25,258 bases of DNA from a virus: positions 1-25,258 of the IMG/VR virus record IMGVR_UViG_3300031463_000029, one strand, 5' to 3'. Made by a program: the position numbers and the translations under genes. Every line of letters begins with the position of its first letter. Positions within the stretch are counted from its first letter, which is position 1. The notes under the pieces were generated by a model. That model worked only from the letters and a program-made list of their open reading frames with translations, was not told the DNA's origin and did not search any database. Shown here one piece after another: positions 3,868 through 23,004 of this stretch.

Positions 3868-4113
3868 TTATTTCTTTCTAATCGCCTCTTCAAACTTCTC
3901 TTTATCTTCCCAAATAGGCGATTCTTCTATGGGAAGATAATCCGATTCGGAAATAGGAGTTTTTTCGGGACTTCCGCTTTTAGAAGTTAAAAGCAAGTAT
4001 TCCTCAAGATTTTTTGCCATAATTTTAGTTGTCAAGTCTTTAATCACCTTTTGGGTTTGCCACTCTTTAAACAAGAGATAAACAATGAGAAGCGAAGTTA
4101 AAATATAAATCAT
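3868..4113 (-). CDS. 81-aa single-pass membrane protein
   Basis: I place the start at the ATG at 4113-4111 rather than 24 bases upstream, because it overlaps the terminase stop as ATGA and has GAGG 5 bases before it. The first 15 residues (MIYILTSLLIVYLLF) form a membrane segment or signal anchor, followed by an amphipathic helix and a Ser/Pro/Glu-rich tail ending EKFEEAIRKK. Lying between terminase and portal, it might be a virion or assembly factor, but no family is recognised. Its stop is 2 bases before the portal start. Confidence 0.75.
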   Translation of the reverse strand: MIYILTSLLIVYLLFKEWQTQKVIKDLTTKIMAKNLEEYLLLTSKSGSPEKTPISESDYLPIEESPIWEDKEKFEEAIRKK

Positions 4114-6461
4114 ATTACCTCGTTGATCATATTCCAATAATCTTCGTCATCATATTCTCCGAACCTTAATCTTTGATAACTCCTGTTAATATCTTCTTTA
4201 ACTTCCTTCCAAAATTCATCAGTCTTTTGGTCGGCGGAATAAACCTTCCCCTCATTTTCAAGTTGCATAAACTCGGGGTGCGAAGCAATGGCGTATCTGA
4301 TTGCATCCATCATATGATTATTTTCATCCGCTGGTTCTTCTACCATTTTATCATTTTCTTTGTAAACATACAATGTAAACTCTTCCAAAGCGTTGGTGCA
4401 TCTTCTATGGATAAAAAACCTTCCCATCCGAATCAAAGCCCTTACCCTTCCAATTCCAAAAAATATCTCGTTATTAGCAGCCATAGTAGGAATGCCTTTG
4501 AGATTCAACTCGTCAATATAGCCTGGCTGGTCTTTTCCTGCGTAGATAAAACTAATTTTATTTTCAAAAACCTTATCTTTTAAAATTGAGATAATATCGG
4601 GTAAAGTCAAACCGCTTTTATAAACCTCATCAAAAAGATAAACCTGTCCATTTTCCGTAATTCCCAAAAAAGCGAGAGCGGTAGGGTCTCGGTATCCCCA
4701 GTCAACTCCGCAAATCACTTTTTGAAACTGCGGAAGATCCGAAACCACATTTCTAAAATTACCTTGATCGTCAAAAATATCCTCATAAACCAACCCTTGC
4801 ATCCTGCGAAACATCCCCTTATATTTCCTTTCAAACTCGGACAAGGGCAAAACCATCTTGGCGTGTTCATAATTTTCTTTAGGGAAGTAGGGATTATGAA
4901 CACTCTCCCATTCAACAATCTCAAAGTTTTCATAACCCAACTCTTTGCTTTTCACTTTCTGATAAATCTGTTTATACAGCCAGTTAACAGTGTTTCCACT
5001 AATACATTCTTCTCCATTACGCCTTACTAAAATCAATCCTGTAGACACAGCTACACAACCGATATAACCATCATAATCAACAATCCTTTGTTCTCTAACC
5101 ATCACCCGTTTCCTTACTCTCTCCGTGATATGAAATATAGAAGTTGTTGCCTTAATTATCCTACCTTGAATACAAGAATCCGCTTGTTTGCGTTCGGAAA
5201 TTTTAGTAGGAATACCACAAAGCATACAGACCTCTTGAAAATCCTCGGCTAGTCTTTTAGAGACTGTATAATAAGAAAATCCCTTTTTACCATTCTTTCT
5301 ATAAGAACCATCTCCCAAAATCATCCTATCTATCAAAACCATCAAATTATTTTTTCCAACAAACTTAAATTCATTGGGAATATATTTGGTGTATTTGTCC
5401 CCCAATTTTTTGAGATAACTCCAAAGTTGTTTATTAGAGCAAAGGAATAAACCTGATTTTTTATTATAACTAAACTTAAAAGGCAGTTTTTCTAAATCTG
5501 ACTTGAGAATTTCCCACTTCTTACCCTCTTTTTGAGAAATATATATTTGATATTGACCATCCTTTCCTTTTTTTCTAATCCCACCTTCTGGCAAAAACCA
5601 CCCCAAAAAAGCCAGCCAATCTTTCATATTGATTTTTATTGGTTTTGATATGCGACATTTATTCTCAACAGGAGGCAAGACAAAAAACTCCTGTTCTTGA
5701 ATTTTTGGAAATACGGCTTTAGGAATTGATAAATATCTGTTTTTCAGTTTAAAAAAATGTTCCGCAGTTTTGATATAAAATCTGTTGGAGTTTTTATACA
5801 AAATGCGATGATTAGGGGTGACCAACAAATCTATAGCGTGTCCCTTAAAATGAAACATCTTGCCTTTATATCTTTGCCAAACAATCTCTTGAGGTTTCTC
5901 AAACCAACCTTCTCCATTCTCATTACAAGCAAAAACCTCATCATCATCAGTCAACTCACCAAACTTCTTCCAACCATTCCTTGTATAAATTTCTGTTTTC
6001 TCGTCATAACAGTAAGGTGAGCTTGTGATTAAAATCCGTCCATTAGTGGCGGAAACTCGGCTCAAAACATTAACCCAAGCCCGATATTTCATCTGACCCG
6101 CTTCGTCCAACCAAACAGCGTTGGCTGTCATACCCTCAACACTATCTGGCGATTCCAAACTTCTAAAAAAGATTTTCCCTCCACTTTTTAAACGATAAAC
6201 CTGTTCCATCTTGTTATACGAACCCCAAACTCCTTCTGGCATTACTTCAAAAATCTTTTCCAGCGTAGACTGATTCAAAATCTTAAAAGACGGAGCGCCA
6301 ACCAAAAAAGTGCCTCTGGGATTTTTCTTAATTTCCTGTATTAGCCACAAAACACCGCAAAGAGTTTTACCAGCCTGAATACCCGCTATCGCAATAACAA
6401 ATCTCTTTTTGGAAAGTAAAACCTGCTTCTGATATTTATGTGGAATGATCACCCGAGGCAT
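4110..6461 (-). CDS. terL: Terminase large subunit, interrupted by an intein
   Basis: Residues 1-150 and 491-783 form a normal large terminase of 443 residues once the intein is removed. The packaging ATPase shows Walker A GIQAGKT (27-33), Walker B with catalytic Glu AVWLDEAG (115-122) and the coupling motif TSSPY (146-150). The nuclease domain starts at VICGVDWGYRDP with the metal-binding Asp 587 and ends with NNHMMDAIRYAIA. The enzyme cuts concatemeric DNA and pumps it into the prohead through the portal. The intein sits immediately after the coupling motif, where the unspliced protein cannot be active, so splicing is required. The start overlaps the upstream gene by 26 bases and has AAGGA before it. 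Confidence 0.95.
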   Translation of the reverse strand: MPRVIIPHKYQKQVLLSKKRFVIAIAGIQAGKTLCGVLWLIQEIKKNPRGTFLVGAPSFKILNQSTLEKIFEVMPEGVWGSYNKMEQVYRLKSGGKIFFRSLESPDSVEGMTANAVWLDEAGQMKYRAWVNVLSRVSATNGRILITSSPYCYDEKTEIYTRNGWKKFGELTDDDEVFACNENGEGWFEKPQEIVWQRYKGKMFHFKGHAIDLLVTPNHRILYKNSNRFYIKTAEHFFKLKNRYLSIPKAVFPKIQEQEFFVLPPVENKCRISKPIKINMKDWLAFLGWFLPEGGIRKKGKDGQYQIYISQKEGKKWEILKSDLEKLPFKFSYNKKSGLFLCSNKQLWSYLKKLGDKYTKYIPNEFKFVGKNNLMVLIDRMILGDGSYRKNGKKGFSYYTVSKRLAEDFQEVCMLCGIPTKISERKQADSCIQGRIIKATTSIFHITERVRKRVMVREQRIVDYDGYIGCVAVSTGLILVRRNGEECISGNTVNWLYKQIYQKVKSKELGYENFEIVEWESVHNPYFPKENYEHAKMVLPLSEFERKYKGMFRRMQGLVYEDIFDDQGNFRNVVSDLPQFQKVICGVDWGYRDPTALAFLGITENGQVYLFDEVYKSGLTLPDIISILKDKVFENKISFIYAGKDQPGYIDELNLKGIPTMAANNEIFFGIGRVRALIRMGRFFIHRRCTNALEEFTLYVYKENDKMVEEPADENNHMMDAIRYAIASHPEFMQLENEGKVYSADQKTDEFWKEVKEDINRSYQRLRFGEYDDEDYWNMINEVI
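4992..6011 (-). mobile_element. Intein with LAGLIDADG homing endonuclease
   Basis: Terminase residues 151-490 (340 aa) are an intein. The N-terminal splicing block begins with Cys 151 (CYDEKTEIYTRNGWKKF), block B is LVTPNHRI (Thr 215, His 218), and the C-terminal blocks are DGYIGCVAV and LVRRNGEECISGN, ending in Asn 490 before extein Thr 491. The penultimate residue is Gly where most inteins have His. Between the splicing blocks are two DOD-type endonuclease motifs, WLAFLGWFLPEGG (282-294) and VLIDRMILGDGSY (375-387), each with its acidic residue (Glu 292, Asp 384), so the endonuclease looks intact. Inteins spread by cutting intein-free terL genes at the same codon. Confidence 0.93.
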
Positions 6462-6876
6462 CGTCCATCCTTATCTCAACAGAATCCTTCCAACTTTCTT
6501 CTTTATCCTTTGATTTAATTTTACCAGTAGGTAAAATCCCCTTCATTTTCATCAGAAGTTCAATCGCTTTGATTCTAACTTGCCTTTCGGGAGCGTTGCT
6601 CGCTCCTTTTTCAAAAATCTCTTCTATCAGAGCCTCTTTTAACTTCATCTCAGCCATATTCTCATTCTCAATAAGATGGTAATTCAAAACCCGTTTCACC
6701 CTTTTTCTCCGAGACATCATCTCCCCGAGCCGACTGGCTTTTGTTCTGTCTTCTATTTCAAAAGCCCTGACCGCCGCCTCTGTTTTATTTCTCGTCTCCA
6801 GATAATATTTTAGCCACAACTTTTCATTTAGGGTAAGAAGATCTAACAAACTTTGTGGGATTTTAGAGAAGTCCAT
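6436..6876 (-). CDS. terS: Terminase small subunit candidate
   Basis: The 146-residue protein sits directly upstream of the large terminase and overlaps it by 26 bases. Residues 20-60 contain a helix-turn-helix-like segment (LETRNKTEAAVRAFEIEDRT followed by KASRLGEMMSRRKRVKRVL) of the kind seen in small terminases, where 'N-x-T-E-A-A' starts the DNA-binding unit. The middle is helical and the C-terminus is highly charged, suiting oligomerisation and contact with the large subunit. The small subunit recognises the packaging site. No Shine-Dalgarno motif precedes the ATG. A stop codon (TGA at 6894-6892) closes the frame upstream and no other start codon lies between, so this ATG is the only practical start. 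Confidence 0.75.
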   Translation of the reverse strand: MDFSKIPQSLLDLLTLNEKLWLKYYLETRNKTEAAVRAFEIEDRTKASRLGEMMSRRKRVKRVLNYHLIENENMAEMKLKEALIEEIFEKGASNAPERQVRIKAIELLMKMKGILPTGKIKSKDKEESWKDSVEIRMDDASGDHST

Positions 6877-6894: not shown

Positions 6895-7119
6895 CTAAAA
6901 ACTTCTTCTACTAACTCTTCGACCACTTCTTTGTTGCTCCTTTAATGTAGTAATAAAGTTTTCTAACATACCTCCTCCAATATATTTATGCTTTACGCAC
7001 AGTCCACCTAAAGCCTGTCGCTCATCTCTTTTTTTGGGGTTTTTTCTCCCCAGAGATTTAGGCAATACTCTCGGAAGACCGTTTATTCTCGTATCTTCCT
7101 GCGGCTGGGTTATTGCCAT
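6895..7119 (-). CDS. Possible 74-aa (or 24-aa) small protein in the terminase leader
   Basis: A frame from ATG 7119 gives 74 basic residues beginning MAITQPQEDTRINGLP and ending TTLKEQQRSGRRVSRRSF. No ribosome binding site precedes this ATG, and it lies in the loop of a TGGGTT/AACCCA stem. An internal ATG at 6969-6967 has a strong GGAGGAGG site and would give a 24-residue peptide (MLENFITTLKEQQRSGRR plus VSRRSF). Which start is used cannot be settled from the sequence. It could be a small regulator or a leader peptide for the terminase operon. It ends 18 bases before the terS ATG. Confidence 0.4.
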   Translation of the reverse strand: MAITQPQEDTRINGLPRVLPKSLGRKNPKKRDERQALGGLCVKHKYIGGGMLENFITTLKEQQRSGRRVSRRSF

Positions 7120-7277
7120 CTCGCTACAACCCAATTGCCGATTAAGTGTGATATGCTATTACGCTCGGCTCTCCACTGGCAGCCGAAACCAGACACCTTT
7201 TATCCTATGATTTAATGGCATCCAGTCGGAGGCTCATAGGTTCGCCTACCTAACCCGACCAGTATTAGTTTTAAATT
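7120..7277. other. Structured non-coding segment upstream of the terminase genes
   Basis: This segment lies between the leftward promoter and the first terminase-side frame and has several inverted repeats. They include TCGGCT/AGCCGA (7175-7180 with 7191-7196), CCTATGA/TCATAGG (7204-7210 with 7234-7240), TAGG-TTCG-CCTA (7237-7248) and GTCGG/CCGAC (7225-7229 with 7254-7258); some overlap, so alternatives compete. Read leftward it would be the 5' leader of the terminase operon. Read rightward it could be a short RNA ending in the hairpin at 7291-7332. No tRNA or known riboswitch could be matched. Confidence 0.4.
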
Positions 7278-7332
7278 AAAATCTGGCGTCGAAACCCGCA
7301 AAGGTTGGAAACGCCAGATTTTTGCGGGTTTC
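7278..7332. terminator. Two interlocked perfect 12-bp inverted repeats
   Basis: Arm A, AAAATCTGGCGT (7278-7289), pairs with 7311-7322. Arm B, GAAACCCGCAAA (7291-7302), pairs with 7321-7332. The order is A-B-A'-B', and A' and B' share two bases, so both hairpins cannot form in one RNA. Read rightward, the B hairpin is followed by CTTTTTG, a reasonable intrinsic terminator tail. Read leftward, from the promoter at 7390, the B arms are made first and the A hairpin is followed by ATTTTAATTT, giving a terminator/antiterminator arrangement. The repeats are certain; the role is inferred. Confidence 0.6.
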
Positions 7333-7361
7333 TTTTTGTGAATTTGTTCCCATCGTCTCTG

Positions 7362-7390
7362 ATCATATCACAAATTGATTTCTTTGTCAA
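7362..7390 (-). promoter_or_regulatory. Leftward sigma70-type promoter for the terminase/portal operon
   Basis: On the minus strand a consensus TTGACA (7390-7385) is separated by exactly 17 bases from TATGAT (7367-7362). The transcript would begin near 7355 and run through the structured leader into the terminase genes. It faces away from the rightward promoter at 8161, making the 0.8 kb between them a divergent control region. Confidence 0.75.
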
Positions 7391-7421
7391 GAGGGGTGGG
7401 GAGTATGAGTATAAAAAATGA

Positions 7422-7475
7422 CCGCCCCGTCTATCTCTTGCGAGAAGAGCCCGAGGGCTCTTATCAATGGGGCGG
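7422..7475. terminator. Compound hairpin, probably a bidirectional insulator
   Basis: CCGCCCC (7422-7428) pairs with GGGGCGG (7469-7475), and within the loop AAGAGCCC (7445-7452) pairs with GGGCTCTT (7455-7462) around a 2-base loop. On the minus strand the outer stem is followed by TCATTTTTTA; on the plus strand the tail is AACCTTTATTTTA. It could block transcription entering the leftward promoter, or serve as a cruciform in the origin region. No gene lies within it. Confidence 0.5.
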
Positions 7476-7527
7476 AACCTTTATTTTATAATATCAAAGT
7501 ATTTTCAAAAAAACAAGTCAAATCCAC

Positions 7528-8053
7528 AAGAGCGGAGGAGTCCGATCCCGAGCCCGAGTGGGGAGAGTGGGAAGTGGGGAGTGGGAAATGCTAGGGGAGG
7601 GAGACCTATCCGAGAGGGGAGTGGAATGCCCGAGAAGGGACTTATCCGAGGGGGGACATACCTCTACCCGTACTCGGGCGGCGGGGCGGACCCTCTCTAC
7701 TTCTCCGAGACCCGAGCCCGAGCCCGTATACGAGTATACGAGTACCCGTACCCGTACTCCTACCCGTACCCGAGCCCGAGTACCCGTACCCGTACCCGAG
7801 TACCCGTACCCGTATACGAGCCCGTACCCGTATACGGATACGTATCCGAACCCGAGCCCGTACACGGATACGGAAACCGTACCCGAGCCCGAGCCCGAGC
7901 CCGTACTCGTACCCGAGCCCGAGCACGGACACGGACACGAGCACGAAACCGAGCCCGAGTATAAACCCGATTCCGATCCCGATCCCGAGACCGAGACCGA
8001 GACCGAGACCGAGTCCGAGTAGGTACCTGGTCCGAGCCCGTGCTTCCGCTCTT
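7528..8053. repeat. Degenerate CCCGAG-like hexamer array with terminal inverted repeats
   Basis: This GC-rich island stands out sharply from the AT-rich genome. From about 7695 to 8026 it is built of units such as CCCGAG, CCCGTA, TACGAG, CACGGA and GAGACC, with CpG steps spaced mostly 6 and sometimes 8 bases apart. GAGACC is repeated perfectly four times at 7987-8010. The left part (7542-7690) is G-rich with scattered CCCGAG or TCCGAG. The island is bounded by AAGAGCGGA (7528-7536) and TCCGCTCTT (8045-8053), a 9-bp inverted repeat. Frames are open on both strands simply because of the even-numbered period, giving dipeptide-like translations, so I do not call genes here. Possible roles are an iteron-like origin region, a regulatory array or a non-autonomous element. 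Confidence 0.75.
7560..7601 (+). other. G-quadruplex motif
   Basis: Runs GGGG (7560-7563), GGG (7569-7571), GGGG (7576-7579) and GGG (7583-7585) are separated by 5, 4 and 3 bases, matching the canonical four-run G-quadruplex pattern. Two further runs (7594-7597 and 7599-7601) follow. It lies at the left side of the hexamer array. Confidence 0.55.
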
Positions 8054-8160
8054 ATTAAAAAAGCCCGCTTTTATCTTTTATTTACTGTTTAAAATAAAAC
8101 TTCCTTCTTGTTATTCTTTTCCGTGCTTAAGGTTGTGGATAAGTGGTAAGGGTGGGGGAC
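8054..8160. other. AT-rich stretch with a perfect DnaA box (origin candidate)
   Basis: After the hexamer array comes a very A/T-rich run (8054-8130), then TGTGGATAA at 8134-8142, the complement of the consensus DnaA box TTATCCACA. A weaker box (AAATCCACA, two mismatches) lies at 7520-7528 just left of the array in the opposite orientation. AT-rich DNA, a DnaA box, an adjacent repeat array and divergent transcription fit a DnaA-dependent origin. One perfect box alone is not proof. No gene is seen here. Confidence 0.45.
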
Positions 8161-8189
8161 TTGACAAATGACTGACAATATGTTATTAT
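8161..8189 (+). promoter_or_regulatory. Rightward sigma70-type promoter, first of two related copies
   Basis: TTGACA (8161-8166) and TATTAT (8184-8189) are separated by 17 bases. The 37-base segment from the -35 element matches the promoter at 9497 at 30 positions, including TGACTGA inside the spacer and ATTGG just after the -10. The shared spacer bases suggest one regulator reads both. Transcription would start near 8196 and run into the early block. Confidence 0.75.
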
Positions 8190-8199
8190 ATTGGTAGAT

Positions 8200-8289
8200 A
8201 TGCTGAAGGATGGAGCAGGAGCAGGGTGCGCAATACAAACGCAAAAGACCCAGCCCGCACATCCCAAAGCATCAAAGAGGACAAAATGA
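8200..8289 (+). CDS. Possible 29-aa peptide at the start of the early transcript
   Basis: An ATG lies about 4 bases after the predicted transcript start, so this frame would be read from a nearly leaderless message. It encodes MLKDGAGAGCAIQTQKTQPA followed by HPKASKRTK and ends in an ATGA overlap with the next small frame. There is no ribosome binding site. The exact overlap is suggestive but short frames like this can arise by chance. No family is recognised. Confidence 0.3.
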   Translation: MLKDGAGAGCAIQTQKTQPAHPKASKRTK

Positions 8290-9335: not shown

Positions 9336-9511
9336 AATACAAAATCTACATCAAAAACCACTGCGAGTATCCCGACTATGAAGACGAGTGCGAGGCGACT
9401 GACAAAGTAGAGGCGGCAATTCTTTTTATGAGAAGGCTGAACCAGAATGGGGAGATTTGGAATTGGCTGGAATTGATGGATTACATTGAAGAGGACTTGA
9501 CAGTTGACTGA
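9332..9511 (+). CDS. 59-aa acidic hypothetical protein
   Basis: The ATG overlaps the previous stop and is preceded by AAAAGGAG. It reads MKYKIYIKNHCEYPDYEDEC, then a helix with ILFMRRLNQNGEIWNWLELM, ending DYIEEDLTVD. The pattern of a strand followed by two helices suggests a compact domain. It is clearly acidic. Its final codons overlap the second promoter of this block, so the promoter is embedded in coding sequence. Function unknown. Confidence 0.75.
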   Translation: MKYKIYIKNHCEYPDYEDECEATDKVEAAILFMRRLNQNGEIWNWLELMDYIEEDLTVD

Positions 9512-9525
9512 AAGTGTGCTATTAT
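9497..9525 (+). promoter_or_regulatory. Second copy of the rightward promoter, before the regulator gene
   Basis: TTGACA (9497-9502) and TATTAT (9520-9525) are 17 bases apart and match the promoter at 8161 at 30 of 37 positions. The stop codon of the upstream gene lies inside the spacer. Transcription would begin near 9532, just before the GGAGGT of the helix-turn-helix gene. Shared spacer bases such as TGACTGA are candidate operator positions. Confidence 0.75.
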
Positions 9526-9544
9526 ATTGGCAGTGGAGGTAAAG

Positions 9545-9760
9545 ATGATTACCAAAGAAGAAATTAAAAAAATGATTGAGGATATGATTTTTAAGTTTGG
9601 CATCTCTCCCGCTAAAATTGCCGACAAAATGAGAATCTCCACCCGAACCCTTGACCGATGGCGGACTGGTCAAACCGAGCCGAAATTGCAAGACAAGTTT
9701 TATTTAAGGCAAATGTATCGAGGCTATGCTCATCGACTGGGCATAAAGGTGAAAAAATGA
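9545..9760 (+). CDS. 71-aa helix-turn-helix transcription regulator
   Basis: I use the ATG at 9545 because GGAGGT lies 3 bases before it and the promoter start leaves only a short leader. Residues 15-45 contain a helix-turn-helix of Cro/XRE type (KFGISPAKIADKMRISTRTL then DRWRTGQTEP), where 'A-x-x-M-x-I-S-x-R-T-L-x-R-W' is the recognition-helix pattern. The C-terminus is basic. Directly behind one of two matching promoters, it is a good candidate for the repressor or activator of both. It ends by ATGA overlap with the next gene. Confidence 0.8.
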   Translation: MITKEEIKKMIEDMIFKFGISPAKIADKMRISTRTLDRWRTGQTEPKLQDKFYLRQMYRGYAHRLGIKVKK

Positions 9761-10591: not shown

Positions 10592-10744
10592 ACAAGACTG
10601 GCGGGAAAAATCCCATCCCTGCCCGCCAGTCTTGTGCGGAGGATTCATCCTCCGCTCCACCTGACAGCAAGGTAGCAAAAAAACAAAAAGCCCCTCCTTA
10701 ACACTACCTTGCTGTCAGGTACCTACAAGGATAAATCTTGTAGG
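10592..10744 (+). repeat. Array of four perfect hairpins
   Basis: Four consecutive inverted repeats fill the gap between two genes: a 14-bp stem (10592-10605 with 10622-10635), a 9-bp stem with a 2-base loop (10636-10644 with 10647-10655), a 17-bp stem (10659-10675 with 10704-10720) and an 8-bp stem (10722-10729 with 10737-10744). All are mismatch-free. None has a T tract on either strand, so they are not ordinary terminators. They end 4 bases before the AAAGGAG of the hexapeptide-repeat gene. Roles in mRNA processing, stability or translation control are possible. Confidence 0.75.
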
Positions 10745-10756
10745 GAAAGGAGAAAA

Positions 10757-11377
10757 ATGAAATTTAGAATCAAAGATGGCACAATTTTAGAGGGAGAACC
10801 AGTAGAAGTATTACAACCTACTCCCAGTGATAAAGTAGCAGCGGCTGATTATAAGTTTACAGATGAAGAGGATTGGGAAGAAGTAGAGGAGGTTTTGGTT
10901 ACTGATGAGCCAGAACAAAAGATATTTGTAAACAAGAAGTTTGCCTCTGGAAGTAAGTTTGGTGATAATTGTATTTTCATTAACTGCATTTTTGGTCCTG
11001 ATTGTAAGTTTGGCTATGGGTGTGAGTTTAGTTCTGGGTGTGATTTCGGTTCTAGATGTAAATTTGGTTCTTGGTGTAAGTTTGGTTCTGAGTCTAAGTT
11101 TGATTCTGATTGTGAGTTTGATTCTGATTGTGAGTTTGATTCTGATTGTGAGTTTAGTTCTTGGTGTGAGTTTGATTCTTTTTGCCAGTTTGGTTCTGGT
11201 TGTAAATTTAGTTTTTCTTGCTGGTTTGGCACTAGGTGTGAGTTTGATTCTGGGTGTGAGTTTGGTTCTGATTGTAAGTTTGATGCTGGGTGTGAGTTTG
11301 GTTCTGGGTGTGAGTTTGGTTCTGATTGCAAGATAACCACACCTTACTGGGATGAGAAAGGTAAACACGAAGAATAA
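10757..11377 (+). CDS. Cys/Phe hexapeptide-repeat protein, beta-helix candidate
   Basis: The ATG at 10757 has AAAGGAG 5 bases before it. After an acidic N-terminal region of about 60 residues, the protein becomes about 20 units of the form C-(K/E)-F-(G/D/S)-S-x, for example CKFGSWCKFGSE and CEFDSDCEFDSD. Aligned as F-(G/D)-x-x-C-x this fits the hexapeptide rule of left-handed beta helices, with Phe in the large core position and Cys in the small one. The array would place rows of Cys on top of one another, suited to disulfide ladders or metal binding. It ends CKITTPYWDEKGKHEE. DNA units of 18 bases are nearly identical in the middle, showing recent expansion. Function unknown. Confidence 0.8.
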   Translation: MKFRIKDGTILEGEPVEVLQPTPSDKVAAADYKFTDEEDWEEVEEVLVTDEPEQKIFVNKKFASGSKFGDNCIFINCIFGPDCKFGYGCEFSSGCDFGSRCKFGSWCKFGSESKFDSDCEFDSDCEFDSDCEFSSWCEFDSFCQFGSGCKFSFSCWFGTRCEFDSGCEFGSDCKFDAGCEFGSGCEFGSDCKITTPYWDEKGKHEE

Positions 11378-14187: not shown

Positions 14188-17100
14188 TCATTCTCCATAA
14201 TACTCTTGTTCCAATTCTTGTGTTATGGCTGATTTATCTTTACCTTTCTGTTTCCATTTTTCAAAACTTTCTCTTTTAGGAATAATCAGAACTTGTCTTT
14301 GAGCCACATCCCAATTCACTTTCACACCTTCTTTTTCAACATCTCTTAATAAGGAAATTACTCGTTGATTGTAATTTCTTAAAAGTTTCTGGGCTTCTGC
14401 TGTCTTTCCTTGATCAGTTAATTGATAGGCTTGGTGTAATACGTTAGTCCTATTATCTACTGAAGACAAATCATAAATCTTTGATTGAGTATCTTGTAAT
14501 CTTTTTGTCGCTGCTTTGTAGGTTGGCTGAAATCCTAATTCAGAAAAGAATAATGCTTGAGAAGAAGGAGCGCCTCTTTGTATAGCATTTTTTATTTCGC
14601 TTACAGTGATTGGAATTCCTACTGCATCACCACTTTGCTGAATAAACTTGGTAAATTTAGTTTCAAAACTATCGGCTTGATTATAAATCGGCTTACCAAA
14701 ATTATCAGTTGGAATTTGATTTGAGAATAAAGCATACATCAAATCCAAAACAGGAACACGACGGTTGGCTAACGATTGCCAAATTGGTCTTGTCCAGTCT
14801 TTTTCATAAGTTAAAGTATTCCAAACAATTTCTCTACCTTTATTATCTCTCTGTCCTGTCTCAATCGTAAATAAATCCTGCCAATCCTTAACAGATTTTG
14901 GCATTTTCTTCCACACTCCTTTAACAAGATATGTTCCCACTCCCGCTGTGACTAAATCAAACAATAAAGAATTAGCCATAAAAGCACGTTCTAATCTTCC
15001 ACCTTTTGTAAATGCGCCAAGCATATTTCTAAAATTACCTTCCATATATCCAGGCACAAAGTATAATATTCGTAACCATCTTGTTAATTCTTTAGACCTT
15101 CCTAAAAGTTGTTCATTTAACATACCAAAATTTCTATCTACTGCTCTAGCGGCTACTTGTTGTAAGGTTTCTTTGGTCACCTCTCCTCTTAAAATTCTTT
15201 CAGCGTTTTGTTCTAATAATCTGTTAGTTATATTAGACCACGCTGAAAATTTAACAGCGGGAACGATTTTCTCAAATTGTAATCCTCTTGACGCTTCTGG
15301 AACTGTCAAAACGTTTGCTAAAGGTAGTTTTAAAACACCTTGTAAAATTTGACCTTGCTTAAACATATTAGCAATGTCGCCCAAGGTGGCAAACGCTTGT
15401 TTTTCAAACGGCTGAAATCCTTCTTTGCTTAATCCTCCTACACCAGCCAAAATTGCTTCCTGAAATTCTGGTGTGAAATCTCTCATTGCTTTGGTTCCTT
15501 TAATCAATCCAGTAATCGGAGAAAGCCAAACAGTAGGATTTAAAAGTCCACCCTTTGTAACAGCAGCGTTGGTAGCGATACTTCCTTTTATCCACGTATT
15601 CCACAAATGAAATGCTCCCAATGAATAACGGAAAACAGTTGTTCCAACGCTGGTTTTGTAAAGCATATTTTTAATAGGATTAGAAGAATAATCTGCTTTG
15701 AAGTTTTGTAAAATGTGAAATACATTCGGTTCTATCTTGTATTTAGCAAAAAGGGGGTCAAGCAAAGCGCCTGAAATCCAATCTTCTGTAGCCTTTTTAG
15801 GATGACGAGAGGTTAAAAAAGAGGCTGTTGCTTCTGGTTCTTTTTTTAACAAAGTATCAAGTATCTTACCCGTTTTACTTGTCGCTGTTTTCACTGATTT
15901 ATCTAAAGCAATAAAACTACCATCTTTAATCAAATCCTTCTGAACATCATAAAGGAATCTTAAATTTTGAACATTATTAAATTCTCTAAAGGCTAATTTC
16001 ACTGGATTATATTCTTTTAATCTAAAACCAGCATCGTGAGCCTCAAGTAATAAATCAAAATACTTTTCTTTTGTGAAAGAACGACTAGCAGCAATTTTTG
16101 GAAATCGATTTTTTAACCACGCTTCAACTTGTTTCGGATTTTCATACATACCAGGAAAATAATTCTTAACATAGTGAACATCTAATTCTTTAGGTATAGC
16201 ATCATAAACCATATCAAAAATCTGCCTAACAGATTGTTTTACTTCAGGATGAGCTAAATCAGGATGTAAACCCTTTCCTAAAGTATCGTAAATCTTTTGT
16301 AATCCTTTATTAGTAGGACGGTCTTGACTTGTTACAATGAAAGAAAATTGTTGTTCTTTGGGGAATTTATCAAACCATTTCCCTAATTCTTCTACCGTTT
16401 TATTGACTTGTGGTAAAGGAGTTCTTTTCAATTTCTCAAAAGCAAGAACACCTTTTCTTTCAGCAAGCGTCAAAGTAGTTCTCATCGGTTCGGGAACAAA
16501 AGATTTCCAACCAACCAAGTCTTTAAAAAAATTAGTAATAGGTTGGAGTTTTTCAGCAATCGGATGAGTAATCGGTGTGGTCAATCTTTTTGCTAATTGT
16601 TCTGCCTCTGGCGTAGCGGCTGGCGCTAATCCCAAAGCAGTATATATAGGAAGACTTTTTGCTATCTCTCCCACTCTACCCTTGCCAGGTTCTCTCGATA
16701 ATTGTTCTAACGCAGTCCAAGAAAGTCCACCCGCTGTTGCTCTTGGTAATAATTGAGCAATTCTTGTTCCTAAAGTTGGCACTCCATAACGATAAATCCC
16801 AGTTGCTCCTCCAGTTAAAAGTTTCCGTAATGGAGAAATACCTGCAATACCTTTAACGGCTGGCAATAAGGCTTCTTCACCCGCTATTGCAGGTAAAGTT
16901 TGTCCTACTATCTTACCTACTTCTGTAGCAATCTTTTCTGCTCTTGTTGTTGGGTATCTTTCTCTATAAACTTGAGGAGCGTATTTCTGTAAAGCCTCTT
17001 TTTCTTCAGGAGTTTCTTCTATTCCTATTTTTTGTCTCAACTTTTGAGGCAATAAAGTTTCTATTATTCCTTGTCCAACTGCTTCGAGTCCTCTTTTTGA

Positions 17101-17262
17101 CAAATCCAAAATATCCCTTCCTTCCATCTTTAAACTTTCTAATCTCGTCGGAGCTCGCAATATTTCTTGCCTATCTTCTGCTTGGGTTTTGGTAGGGTGA
17201 AACAATCTAGAAATTAAATCTAGAGGATTTTTAGATTTTTTTAAGAAATCTAGTAAAGGCAT
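14188..17262 (-). CDS. 1024-aa internal virion / ejection protein candidate
   Basis: This is the largest protein in the window. Most of it is helical. Hydrophobic Gly/Ala-rich stretches occur at 115-220 and 760-785. Residues 365-380 (YVKNYFPGMYENPKQ) and 718-750 (LLGRSKELTRWLRILYFVPG and the following YMEGNFRNM) resemble segments of the large polyvalent proteins of phages (LPD38-like). In podoviruses such proteins are stored in the capsid and ejected into the cell envelope with the DNA. Position beside a Gln/Ala-rich coiled-coil protein and before the endolysin supports this. No enzymatic motif is recognised. There is no good ribosome binding site, so translation is likely coupled to the 360-aa gene 2 bases upstream. 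Confidence 0.6.
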   Translation of the reverse strand: MPLLDFLKKSKNPLDLISRLFHPTKTQAEDRQEILRAPTRLESLKMEGRDILDLSKRGLEAVGQGIIETLLPQKLRQKIGIEETPEEKEALQKYAPQVYRERYPTTRAEKIATEVGKIVGQTLPAIAGEEALLPAVKGIAGISPLRKLLTGGATGIYRYGVPTLGTRIAQLLPRATAGGLSWTALEQLSREPGKGRVGEIAKSLPIYTALGLAPAATPEAEQLAKRLTTPITHPIAEKLQPITNFFKDLVGWKSFVPEPMRTTLTLAERKGVLAFEKLKRTPLPQVNKTVEELGKWFDKFPKEQQFSFIVTSQDRPTNKGLQKIYDTLGKGLHPDLAHPEVKQSVRQIFDMVYDAIPKELDVHYVKNYFPGMYENPKQVEAWLKNRFPKIAASRSFTKEKYFDLLLEAHDAGFRLKEYNPVKLAFREFNNVQNLRFLYDVQKDLIKDGSFIALDKSVKTATSKTGKILDTLLKKEPEATASFLTSRHPKKATEDWISGALLDPLFAKYKIEPNVFHILQNFKADYSSNPIKNMLYKTSVGTTVFRYSLGAFHLWNTWIKGSIATNAAVTKGGLLNPTVWLSPITGLIKGTKAMRDFTPEFQEAILAGVGGLSKEGFQPFEKQAFATLGDIANMFKQGQILQGVLKLPLANVLTVPEASRGLQFEKIVPAVKFSAWSNITNRLLEQNAERILRGEVTKETLQQVAARAVDRNFGMLNEQLLGRSKELTRWLRILYFVPGYMEGNFRNMLGAFTKGGRLERAFMANSLLFDLVTAGVGTYLVKGVWKKMPKSVKDWQDLFTIETGQRDNKGREIVWNTLTYEKDWTRPIWQSLANRRVPVLDLMYALFSNQIPTDNFGKPIYNQADSFETKFTKFIQQSGDAVGIPITVSEIKNAIQRGAPSSQALFFSELGFQPTYKAATKRLQDTQSKIYDLSSVDNRTNVLHQAYQLTDQGKTAEAQKLLRNYNQRVISLLRDVEKEGVKVNWDVAQRQVLIIPKRESFEKWKQKGKDKSAITQELEQEYYGE

Positions 17263-21268: not shown

Positions 21269-22408
21269 TTAAAAGCCTTGATCTAACAAACTTTCATAAT
21301 ATTCACTGCTGGTGATATGCACAAAATCTGGTTTGTGGATTTGCCTCTCGGCTAAATCAGTCAACATTGTTTGGATTGCCTCATCTGCCAAACCTTTGTA
21401 TTCGGCTACTCTTTCTGGCTTGTGTATTTGGCAAAATCTAAACATCGCATAGTTGACAAATATCTCGGGATATTGATTGTAGGGGTAGAGCAACTCGTCA
21501 GCATCGGAAGACAAGGTTGTAGGAGTGGGATAATACCAAAGTTTGTAAGTGCCAGAAGTTGGGGTGGGTTTAAATCCAATTTTATTATCAAGAAAATAAA
21601 AATATGGTTCAGAAGCAGTAAATATTCTTGTCGGCTCAACATCTCTCATATCAAGCGGAGTCGGATTAACATAGGTTGAACTATCCATCGCTACTTCTAT
21701 TTTGAAAAGTTGAACAAAATCTGATGGCAAGTCATATTCTGCCTGACCTTGAGTAAAAGGAAGTTCGCCAGAGTATTTTAAAGCGTAAGCCAAGTTTTTT
21801 TGCCTTACTTTATGTTGAACCTTGCGATAAATTTCATTTATCCAAACGGTAATATCATCTCTTCTAATTCTCTGTTCAAAAGGATCATTGGCTAAAGTAA
21901 CCACCGCATCTTGAAGTCCTCTTAAACAGTAATCAGTAATGCCTGTAGCGGGGAAGGGATCAGATAAATCGGATTGAACGCCAGTAAGCGAGTTATAATA
22001 AGCAGCCTTATACCAAGATGAAGATGTTCCTGTGGTGTCGTCATAGCGAGTGCCATCAGGATAATCAACTTCTATGTTTATGCCAACAAGAATTAAAGAA
22101 TAAGTTCCAGTTTTTGAAGAGGCTTTATAAATTCTAACCTGATTATATTTGATATAGGTGACTGGTGTATCCACTCCGTGATCAAACTTCAAAGCATCAA
22201 CCAATAAAGTATTGTTGCCTGAAATAGAATTGATTTTGGTAATTTCCGAATTTTCGTTTCCAATCTCGCCAACAACAACATAATCATTAGCGGAAAAACC
22301 TTGCGTATTTTTTGTAACTAATTGAGTAGTTCCACTACTCGCACTACTTGTAAGATATGTTTGTTCACTTGAACTTATATCAGGATGTTCTATTATTAAG
22401 ACTGGCAT
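21269..22408 (-). CDS. Head-tail adaptor protein with replaced 5' end
   Basis: The C-terminal two thirds, from about residue 160 (GLQDAVVTLANDPFEQRIRR, DITVWINEIYRKVQHKVRQK and LPSDFVQLFKIEVAMDSSTY), have the helical-plus-beta layout of phage adaptor proteins (gp6/tail tubular A type) that bind the portal. The first 160 residues form beta-rich domains (SSASSGTTQLVTKNTQGFSA) possibly exposed on the tail. A GAGGAG site precedes the ATG. The first 21 codons match in protein, but not in codons, a fragment left at 22996-23058 on the far side of an HNH endonuclease gene, so the start has been rebuilt after an insertion. Confidence 0.8.
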   Translation of the reverse strand: MPVLIIEHPDISSSEQTYLTSSASSGTTQLVTKNTQGFSANDYVVVGEIGNENSEITKINSISGNNTLLVDALKFDHGVDTPVTYIKYNQVRIYKASSKTGTYSLILVGINIEVDYPDGTRYDDTTGTSSSWYKAAYYNSLTGVQSDLSDPFPATGITDYCLRGLQDAVVTLANDPFEQRIRRDDITVWINEIYRKVQHKVRQKNLAYALKYSGELPFTQGQAEYDLPSDFVQLFKIEVAMDSSTYVNPTPLDMRDVEPTRIFTASEPYFYFLDNKIGFKPTPTSGTYKLWYYPTPTTLSSDADELLYPYNQYPEIFVNYAMFRFCQIHKPERVAEYKGLADEAIQTMLTDLAERQIHKPDFVHITSSEYYESLLDQGF

Positions 22409-22458
22409 AATTTCTCCTCTTGACTTTTAACAATTAAAGTTGTAGCATTAAAGTTGAT

Positions 22459-23004
22459 ATGATTAAAGTTATTTGTCAAATTTGTAAAAAACCGTTTTGG
22501 GTAAAACCTTACAGAATTAAGCGTGGAGTAAAATGTTGTTCTAAAAAATGTAGAAAGAAATTGCCTATGTCTATAGAACAACGGAAGAAACTTAGTGAAT
22601 TCCATAAAGGAAAAAGTTTTCTTTCCAAAGAAACACGAAAAAATCTTAGTGATAGATGGAAAGGTAAAAATAATCCTAATTGGAATAATGGAAAATTGTT
22701 TCATAGCCAAGGTTATGTAATTATTAAAGATTCTTCTCACCCTTTTGCTTATAAAAATAGAAATCAAGGCTATATTTTTGAACATCGTCTTGTTATGGAG
22801 AAAAAAATTGGTCGTTATTTGCTTCCTCAGGAAAGAGTTCATCACATCAATGGTATAAAAGATGATAATAGACCAGAAAATCTGGAACTTTTTGCTAATA
22901 ATTCTGAACATCTTAAACAAAGACATATGAAACAATGGGAAAAAGTTAAACTTATAGGTTGGAAAAAATTGGCTGAACTTGCTTATAAACAATCTCGAAG
23001 TTAA
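22459..23004 (+). CDS. HNH homing endonuclease (with NUMOD3-like segment)
   Basis: The 181-residue protein lies antisense to the virion block. It starts with a Cys-rich segment (CQICKKPFWVKPYRIKRGVK then CCSKKC) likely to bind zinc, then a NUMOD3-like DNA-binding segment (LSDRWKGKNNPNWNNG), then the HNH_3 core EHRLVMEKKIGR, ERVHHINGIKDDNRPENLEL and the ending NNSEHLK. These enzymes cut one site in relatives lacking the element and are copied into it. Its stop codon lies within the leftover start of the adaptor gene. No good ribosome binding site is seen. It occupies the only plus-strand interval inside the 11 kb leftward block. Confidence 0.88.
   Translation: MIKVICQICKKPFWVKPYRIKRGVKCCSKKCRKKLPMSIEQRKKLSEFHKGKSFLSKETRKNLSDRWKGKNNPNWNNGKLFHSQGYVIIKDSSHPFAYKNRNQGYIFEHRLVMEKKIGRYLLPQERVHHINGIKDDNRPENLELFANNSEHLKQRHMKQWEKVKLIGWKKLAELAYKQSRS

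Follow-up and report, generated by a model that had tools for sequence, protein, structure and literature searches.

Minisatellites formed by slippage are characterized by adjacent units that resemble each other most and by a length that is polymorphic between close relatives, whereas iteron arrays consist of at least three direct repeats of about 17–22 bp bound by an initiator. DnaA-dependent origins are recognized by clustered DnaA boxes adjacent to an AT-rich element at which the DNA unwinds, and the origin of phage lambda sits in the coding sequence of O. The iterons to which lambda O binds are four in number and 19 bp long (PMC3985674), and in bacterial origins the initiator sites are paired with an unwinding element (PMC10797057).

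The window considered here is the whole of the virus record IMGVR_UViG_3300031463_000029 (25,258 bases, possibly a fragment), in which terminase, portal and tail genes lie to the left of a GC-rich array (7528–8053) and the early genes to its right. As described in the original prediction, the array belongs to an AT-rich phage (63% GC vs about 39% for the whole record) and is located between divergent promoters (Table 1). The early promoter recurs as a near-copy (TTGACA..GTGTGCTATTATATTGGCAG) at 9490–9525, which is kept in the relative L005 (IMGVR_UViG_3300031749_000026), which also shares the LAGLIDADG intein carried by the large terminase (4110–6461, minus strand).

Table 1. Features in and around the GC-rich array; positions are those of the window.
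Feature	Position	Strand	Remarks
Small terminase (Terminase_2)	6436–6876		First gene leftward of the array
Leftward sigma-70-like promoter, TTGACA-17-TATGAT	7362–7390	minus	Equivalent TTGACA..TATAAT in L005
AAGAGCGGA, left copy of the claimed inverted pair	7528–7536	plus	Missing at the corresponding place in L005
G-rich stretch with canonical G-quadruplex motif	7560–7585	plus	
Core block common to the window and L005 (81% identity)	7607–7726	plus	Contains TATCCGAG direct repeats
Degenerate hexamer tract	7706–8022		CpG each 6 or 8 bp; noncoding; mostly missing from L005
TCCGCTCTT, right copy of the claimed inverted pair	8045–8053	plus	Within the conserved right flank
AT-rich block, candidate DNA unwinding element	8054–8133		27.5% GC; mostly 90–97% identity to L005
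Perfect DnaA box TTATCCACA	8134–8142	minus	Same place in L005
Rightward sigma-70-like promoter, TTGACA-17-TATTAT	8161–8189	plus	Start of the early unit
Early leader	8190–8271	plus	97–100% identical to L005
HTH protein(s)	9527–9760		Encoded in the window; HTH proteins encoded in L005 too

L005 was located through its portal protein (95% identity) and its DNA is about 90% identical to the window over the shared genes; relatives were sought by portal, large terminase and O-like proteins, with L005 and one distant record as the only results. The two phages have in common the core block and the divergent promoter layout, and the right flank is kept in L005 from 8032 onwards (89%, TTCCGCTCTTATT included). 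L005 is without most of the hexamer tract, without the left flank and without the left AAGAGCGGA; at the position of the tract it has TCCGAGCCCGAGACCGAGCACGGAACACGGAACACGG, followed by unrelated sequence with two DnaA boxes. The length variation that the prediction proposed to look for in related genomes is evident: the tract spans about 317 bp in the window, and in L005 similar words fill about 50 bp. It had also been stated that an unrelated sequence without a conserved role at this position in related phages would speak against the array; the tract is in fact mostly replaced, but the role of the region appears conserved.

The original observation is mostly correct: the degenerate CpG-phased hexamer tract is real and is built of the words CCCGAG, CCCGTA, ACCGAG, CACGGA, and TACGAG. 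Its 49 CpGs are spaced by exactly 6 bases in 40 of the 48 successive gaps, the others being of 8 (four), 12 (two), and 7 bases (two), with 96% of the spacings even; in 500 dinucleotide shuffles of the tract, spacings of 6 averaged 5.4 (maximum 13) and even spacings 50% (maximum 75%). Over the whole array, the most frequent CpG-centred words are CCCGAG (16), CCCGTA (13), TCCGAG (5), and ACCGAG (5). The claim of a hexamer array of about 500 bp holds for the phased tract and not for the 5′ part of the array (about 7528–7705), a G-rich block of a different kind that between 7556 and 7705 is without the 6-bp CpG phase and holds two TATCCGAG repeats. Stop codons are missing from most frames of the tract because of its composition, and the translated tract ORFs match L005 in several frames and run across stops, so the tract is not a conserved gene; a protein-coding repeat gene was rejected since the frame is not kept between the window and L005.

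A search of metagenomes for similar arrays had been proposed; the specific array patterns gave no second such array in IMG/VR or in GTDB genomes, in exact-pattern scans that would miss arrays of other words. CCCGAGCCCGAGCCCG occurs in IMG/VR at at least 120 loci, the best in GC-rich records, and the tract of the densest one (L092) looks like glycine-rich coding sequence and was discarded as unrelated. Likewise set aside were the single match of the array pattern in GTDB genomes (Plantactinospora, GC-rich coding-like sequence), the DNA search of GenBank phages, whose only match, a weak one of low complexity (72%), was to a Gordonia phage, and weak Rfam matches on the array, which are composition-driven and below cut-off. 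At curated cut-offs, Rfam families matched nowhere in the window, and a literature search on such arrays found nothing.

The order of the units carries a slippage signal. Neighbouring hexamers agree at 0.65 of the variable positions vs 0.50 in permuted order, with 0 of 2000 permutations attaining the observed value, identical neighbouring units number 15 vs 6.6 (1 of 2000), and no clear excess of similarity is found beyond lag 1, while Tandem Repeats Finder returns nested periods of 6, 20, 26, 36, and 58; similarity confined to neighbours, together with nested periods, is what repeated local duplication would give. Both the neighbour similarity and the length difference from L005 are those of slippage-formed minisatellites. 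Since a close relative is without most of it, the tract is probably a fast-changing stutter repeat and not an element of a new type; most likely it is a product of ordinary slippage, and what is unusual is its words. Of the "slippage under constraint" suggested originally, the unit-order test upholds the slippage but not the constraint: L005, whose CpG spacings show runs of 7 (7-bp units) and are even in 59% of cases, keeps neither the inverted pair nor the even phase, and therefore neither is under visible constraint.

The locus is thus best explained, with a confidence somewhat above even, as a noncoding tract expanded by slippage and set in a divergent control region that is probably also the phage's origin of replication. 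The minisatellite-like tract would have started as a short seed, presumably CCGAG-CCCGAG-ACCGAG-CACGGA, which is still present in L005; local slippage during replication would have lengthened it, and point mutation would then have degraded it; with one relative, gain in the window vs loss in L005 is unrooted, and loss in L005 is possible. Host DnaA, in L005 also a lambda-O-like initiator, would bind near the AT-rich block and open it, the divergent promoters would transcribe the terminase genes in one direction and the early genes in the other, and the hexamers would most likely be a spacer tolerant of length change. The tract, the promoter matches, the DnaA boxes, the conservation pattern, the unit-order signal, and the O-like gene of L005 are observed; we infer from there growth from the seed, origin function, use of DnaA, and no sequence-specific role for the hexamers.

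The proposed tie between the divergent control region and replication is supported by the DnaA box beside the AT-rich block, the O-like gene of L005, and the divergent promoters. Exact DnaA boxes, expected about 0.3 times per record, occur once in the window and four times in the L005 record, three of them within this intergenic region. The L005 gene beside the region is a lambda-O-like initiator (phrog_678, E=4.5e-11, plus four further O-like families) that matches Phage_rep_O weakly (E=0.002, below the family cut-off). Weighing against the proposed origin, the window, which is possibly incomplete, has a single DnaA box and no match to the O-like gene, and in L005 replication could instead start within the O gene, as in lambda. 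The cumulative GC skew has its minimum at about 7250–8250, a position equally explained by divergent transcription and gene orientation.

Directly downstream of the leftward promoter, a highly structured leader RNA (6990–7358, minus strand; z −4.1, 0 of 100 shuffles) occupies the position of the L005 O-like gene. Its two interleaved perfect 12-bp stems (7278–7289/7311–7322 and 7291–7302/7321–7332) correspond to an H-type pseudoknot, and the leader, without an Rfam match at curated cut-offs, is a candidate noncoding RNA.

The strong 6-bp phase, the location between promoters and beside a DnaA box, and the HTH proteins encoded in the window and in L005 would suit a multi-site binding field, iteron-like or a regulator array, in which the CpG steps act as contacts at a fixed helical phase. 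Such a field is nevertheless unlikely: L005, at roughly 90% identity, retains neither the tract nor its phase, the similarity of the units depends on adjacency, as would be predicted for slippage but not for sites held to one consensus, and a hexamer is too short in comparison with the iterons of lambda (four 19-bp repeats, PMC3985674). The hexamers are abandoned as an iteron field because neither their spacing nor the tract is conserved in L005. The TATCCGAG direct repeats, of which the window has two (7607 and 7643) and L005 three, at distances of 36 and 39 bp, are better iteron candidates. A structural role, in which minus-strand G-quadruplexes (GGGCTC/GGGTAC) and the plus-strand one of the G-rich stretch hold the strands of the origin or promoters open, is less probable again. 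All four canonical motifs of the 25-kb window lie within the array, three in the hexamer tract and one in the G-rich block, against averages of 0.002 (plus) and 0.5 (minus) in array shuffles; however, no canonical motif is present in the whole L005 record, which argues against a conserved need, so that structure-based roles are possible but not conserved, and the array, folded as single-stranded DNA, scores no better than shuffles (z 0.13).

A low-complexity tract in a metagenome contig may also raise the suspicion of an assembly or amplification artefact inside a true intergenic region, a doubtful explanation given that the tract has ordered, varying units and distinct segments within reach of short reads, and that the right flank, the core, and the seed words recur in a second contig, L005. 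The small terminase as the next leftward gene would agree with a packaging (pac/cos) recognition region upstream of it, but in L005 the region and the small terminase gene have two other genes between them and no terminus is seen in the window, making this reading very improbable. Finally, the 9-bp terminal inverted repeats originally reported exist as an exact AAGAGCGGA/TCCGCTCTT pair at the array edges, and a further AAGAGCGGA copy is found at 565 in the window, but they are not terminal repeats: the left copy is missing from L005, and the pair therefore marks no element. A non-autonomous mobile element bounded by them can hardly be credited, being contradicted by L005, where the right copy is conserved flank; no target-site duplication flanks the array in the sequence, and no other copies were found by the patterns scanned.

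Other differences between the two phages lie outside the control region. About 680 bases (22313–22995), located where the leftward gene ending at 21269 begins, are missing from L005, and this stretch, with a putative HNH-type endonuclease-like ORF (22459–23004, plus strand), is a candidate homing insertion or intron. The gene at 10709–11377 contains 18-bp repeats (FGSGCKF-type six-residue units) scrambled relative to L005, and the large virion protein encoded at 14188–17262 (1024 aa, weak tape-measure match) is exchanged in L005 for a mostly unrelated 1012-aa protein between flanking DNA more than 90% identical, a module swap.

The slippage-expanded tract in a probable origin locates such an origin, with its divergent control region, for an uncultured phage group, and shows that a relative with about 90% identity can be without most of a striking phased array; phase alone is not to be taken for functional constraint. 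It is improbable that the CpG/G-quadruplex hexamers are an evolvable origin module whose length tunes origin opening or divergent transcription; if this were true, the phage would possess a simple phase-variation device in which slippage adjusts either replication or the expression of early genes.

In comparison with known systems, the region looks as if it worked in the manner of lambda O and bacterial origins. Like lambda-type origins, L005 presents an O-like protein encoded beside direct repeats and an AT-rich block; in contrast, the candidate origin here is intergenic with DnaA boxes, and the window is without an O gene. As in bacterial oriC and DnaA-box plasmid origins, TTATCCACA boxes adjoin the AT-rich block, although L005 has three of these boxes, which are sequence matches, and the window just one. 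With degenerate micro- and minisatellites the tract shares short units, neighbours that are most alike, and a length that differs between close relatives, and it is distinguished from them by an unusually high GC content and a CpG phase within an AT-rich phage, with mixed units and 8-bp steps.
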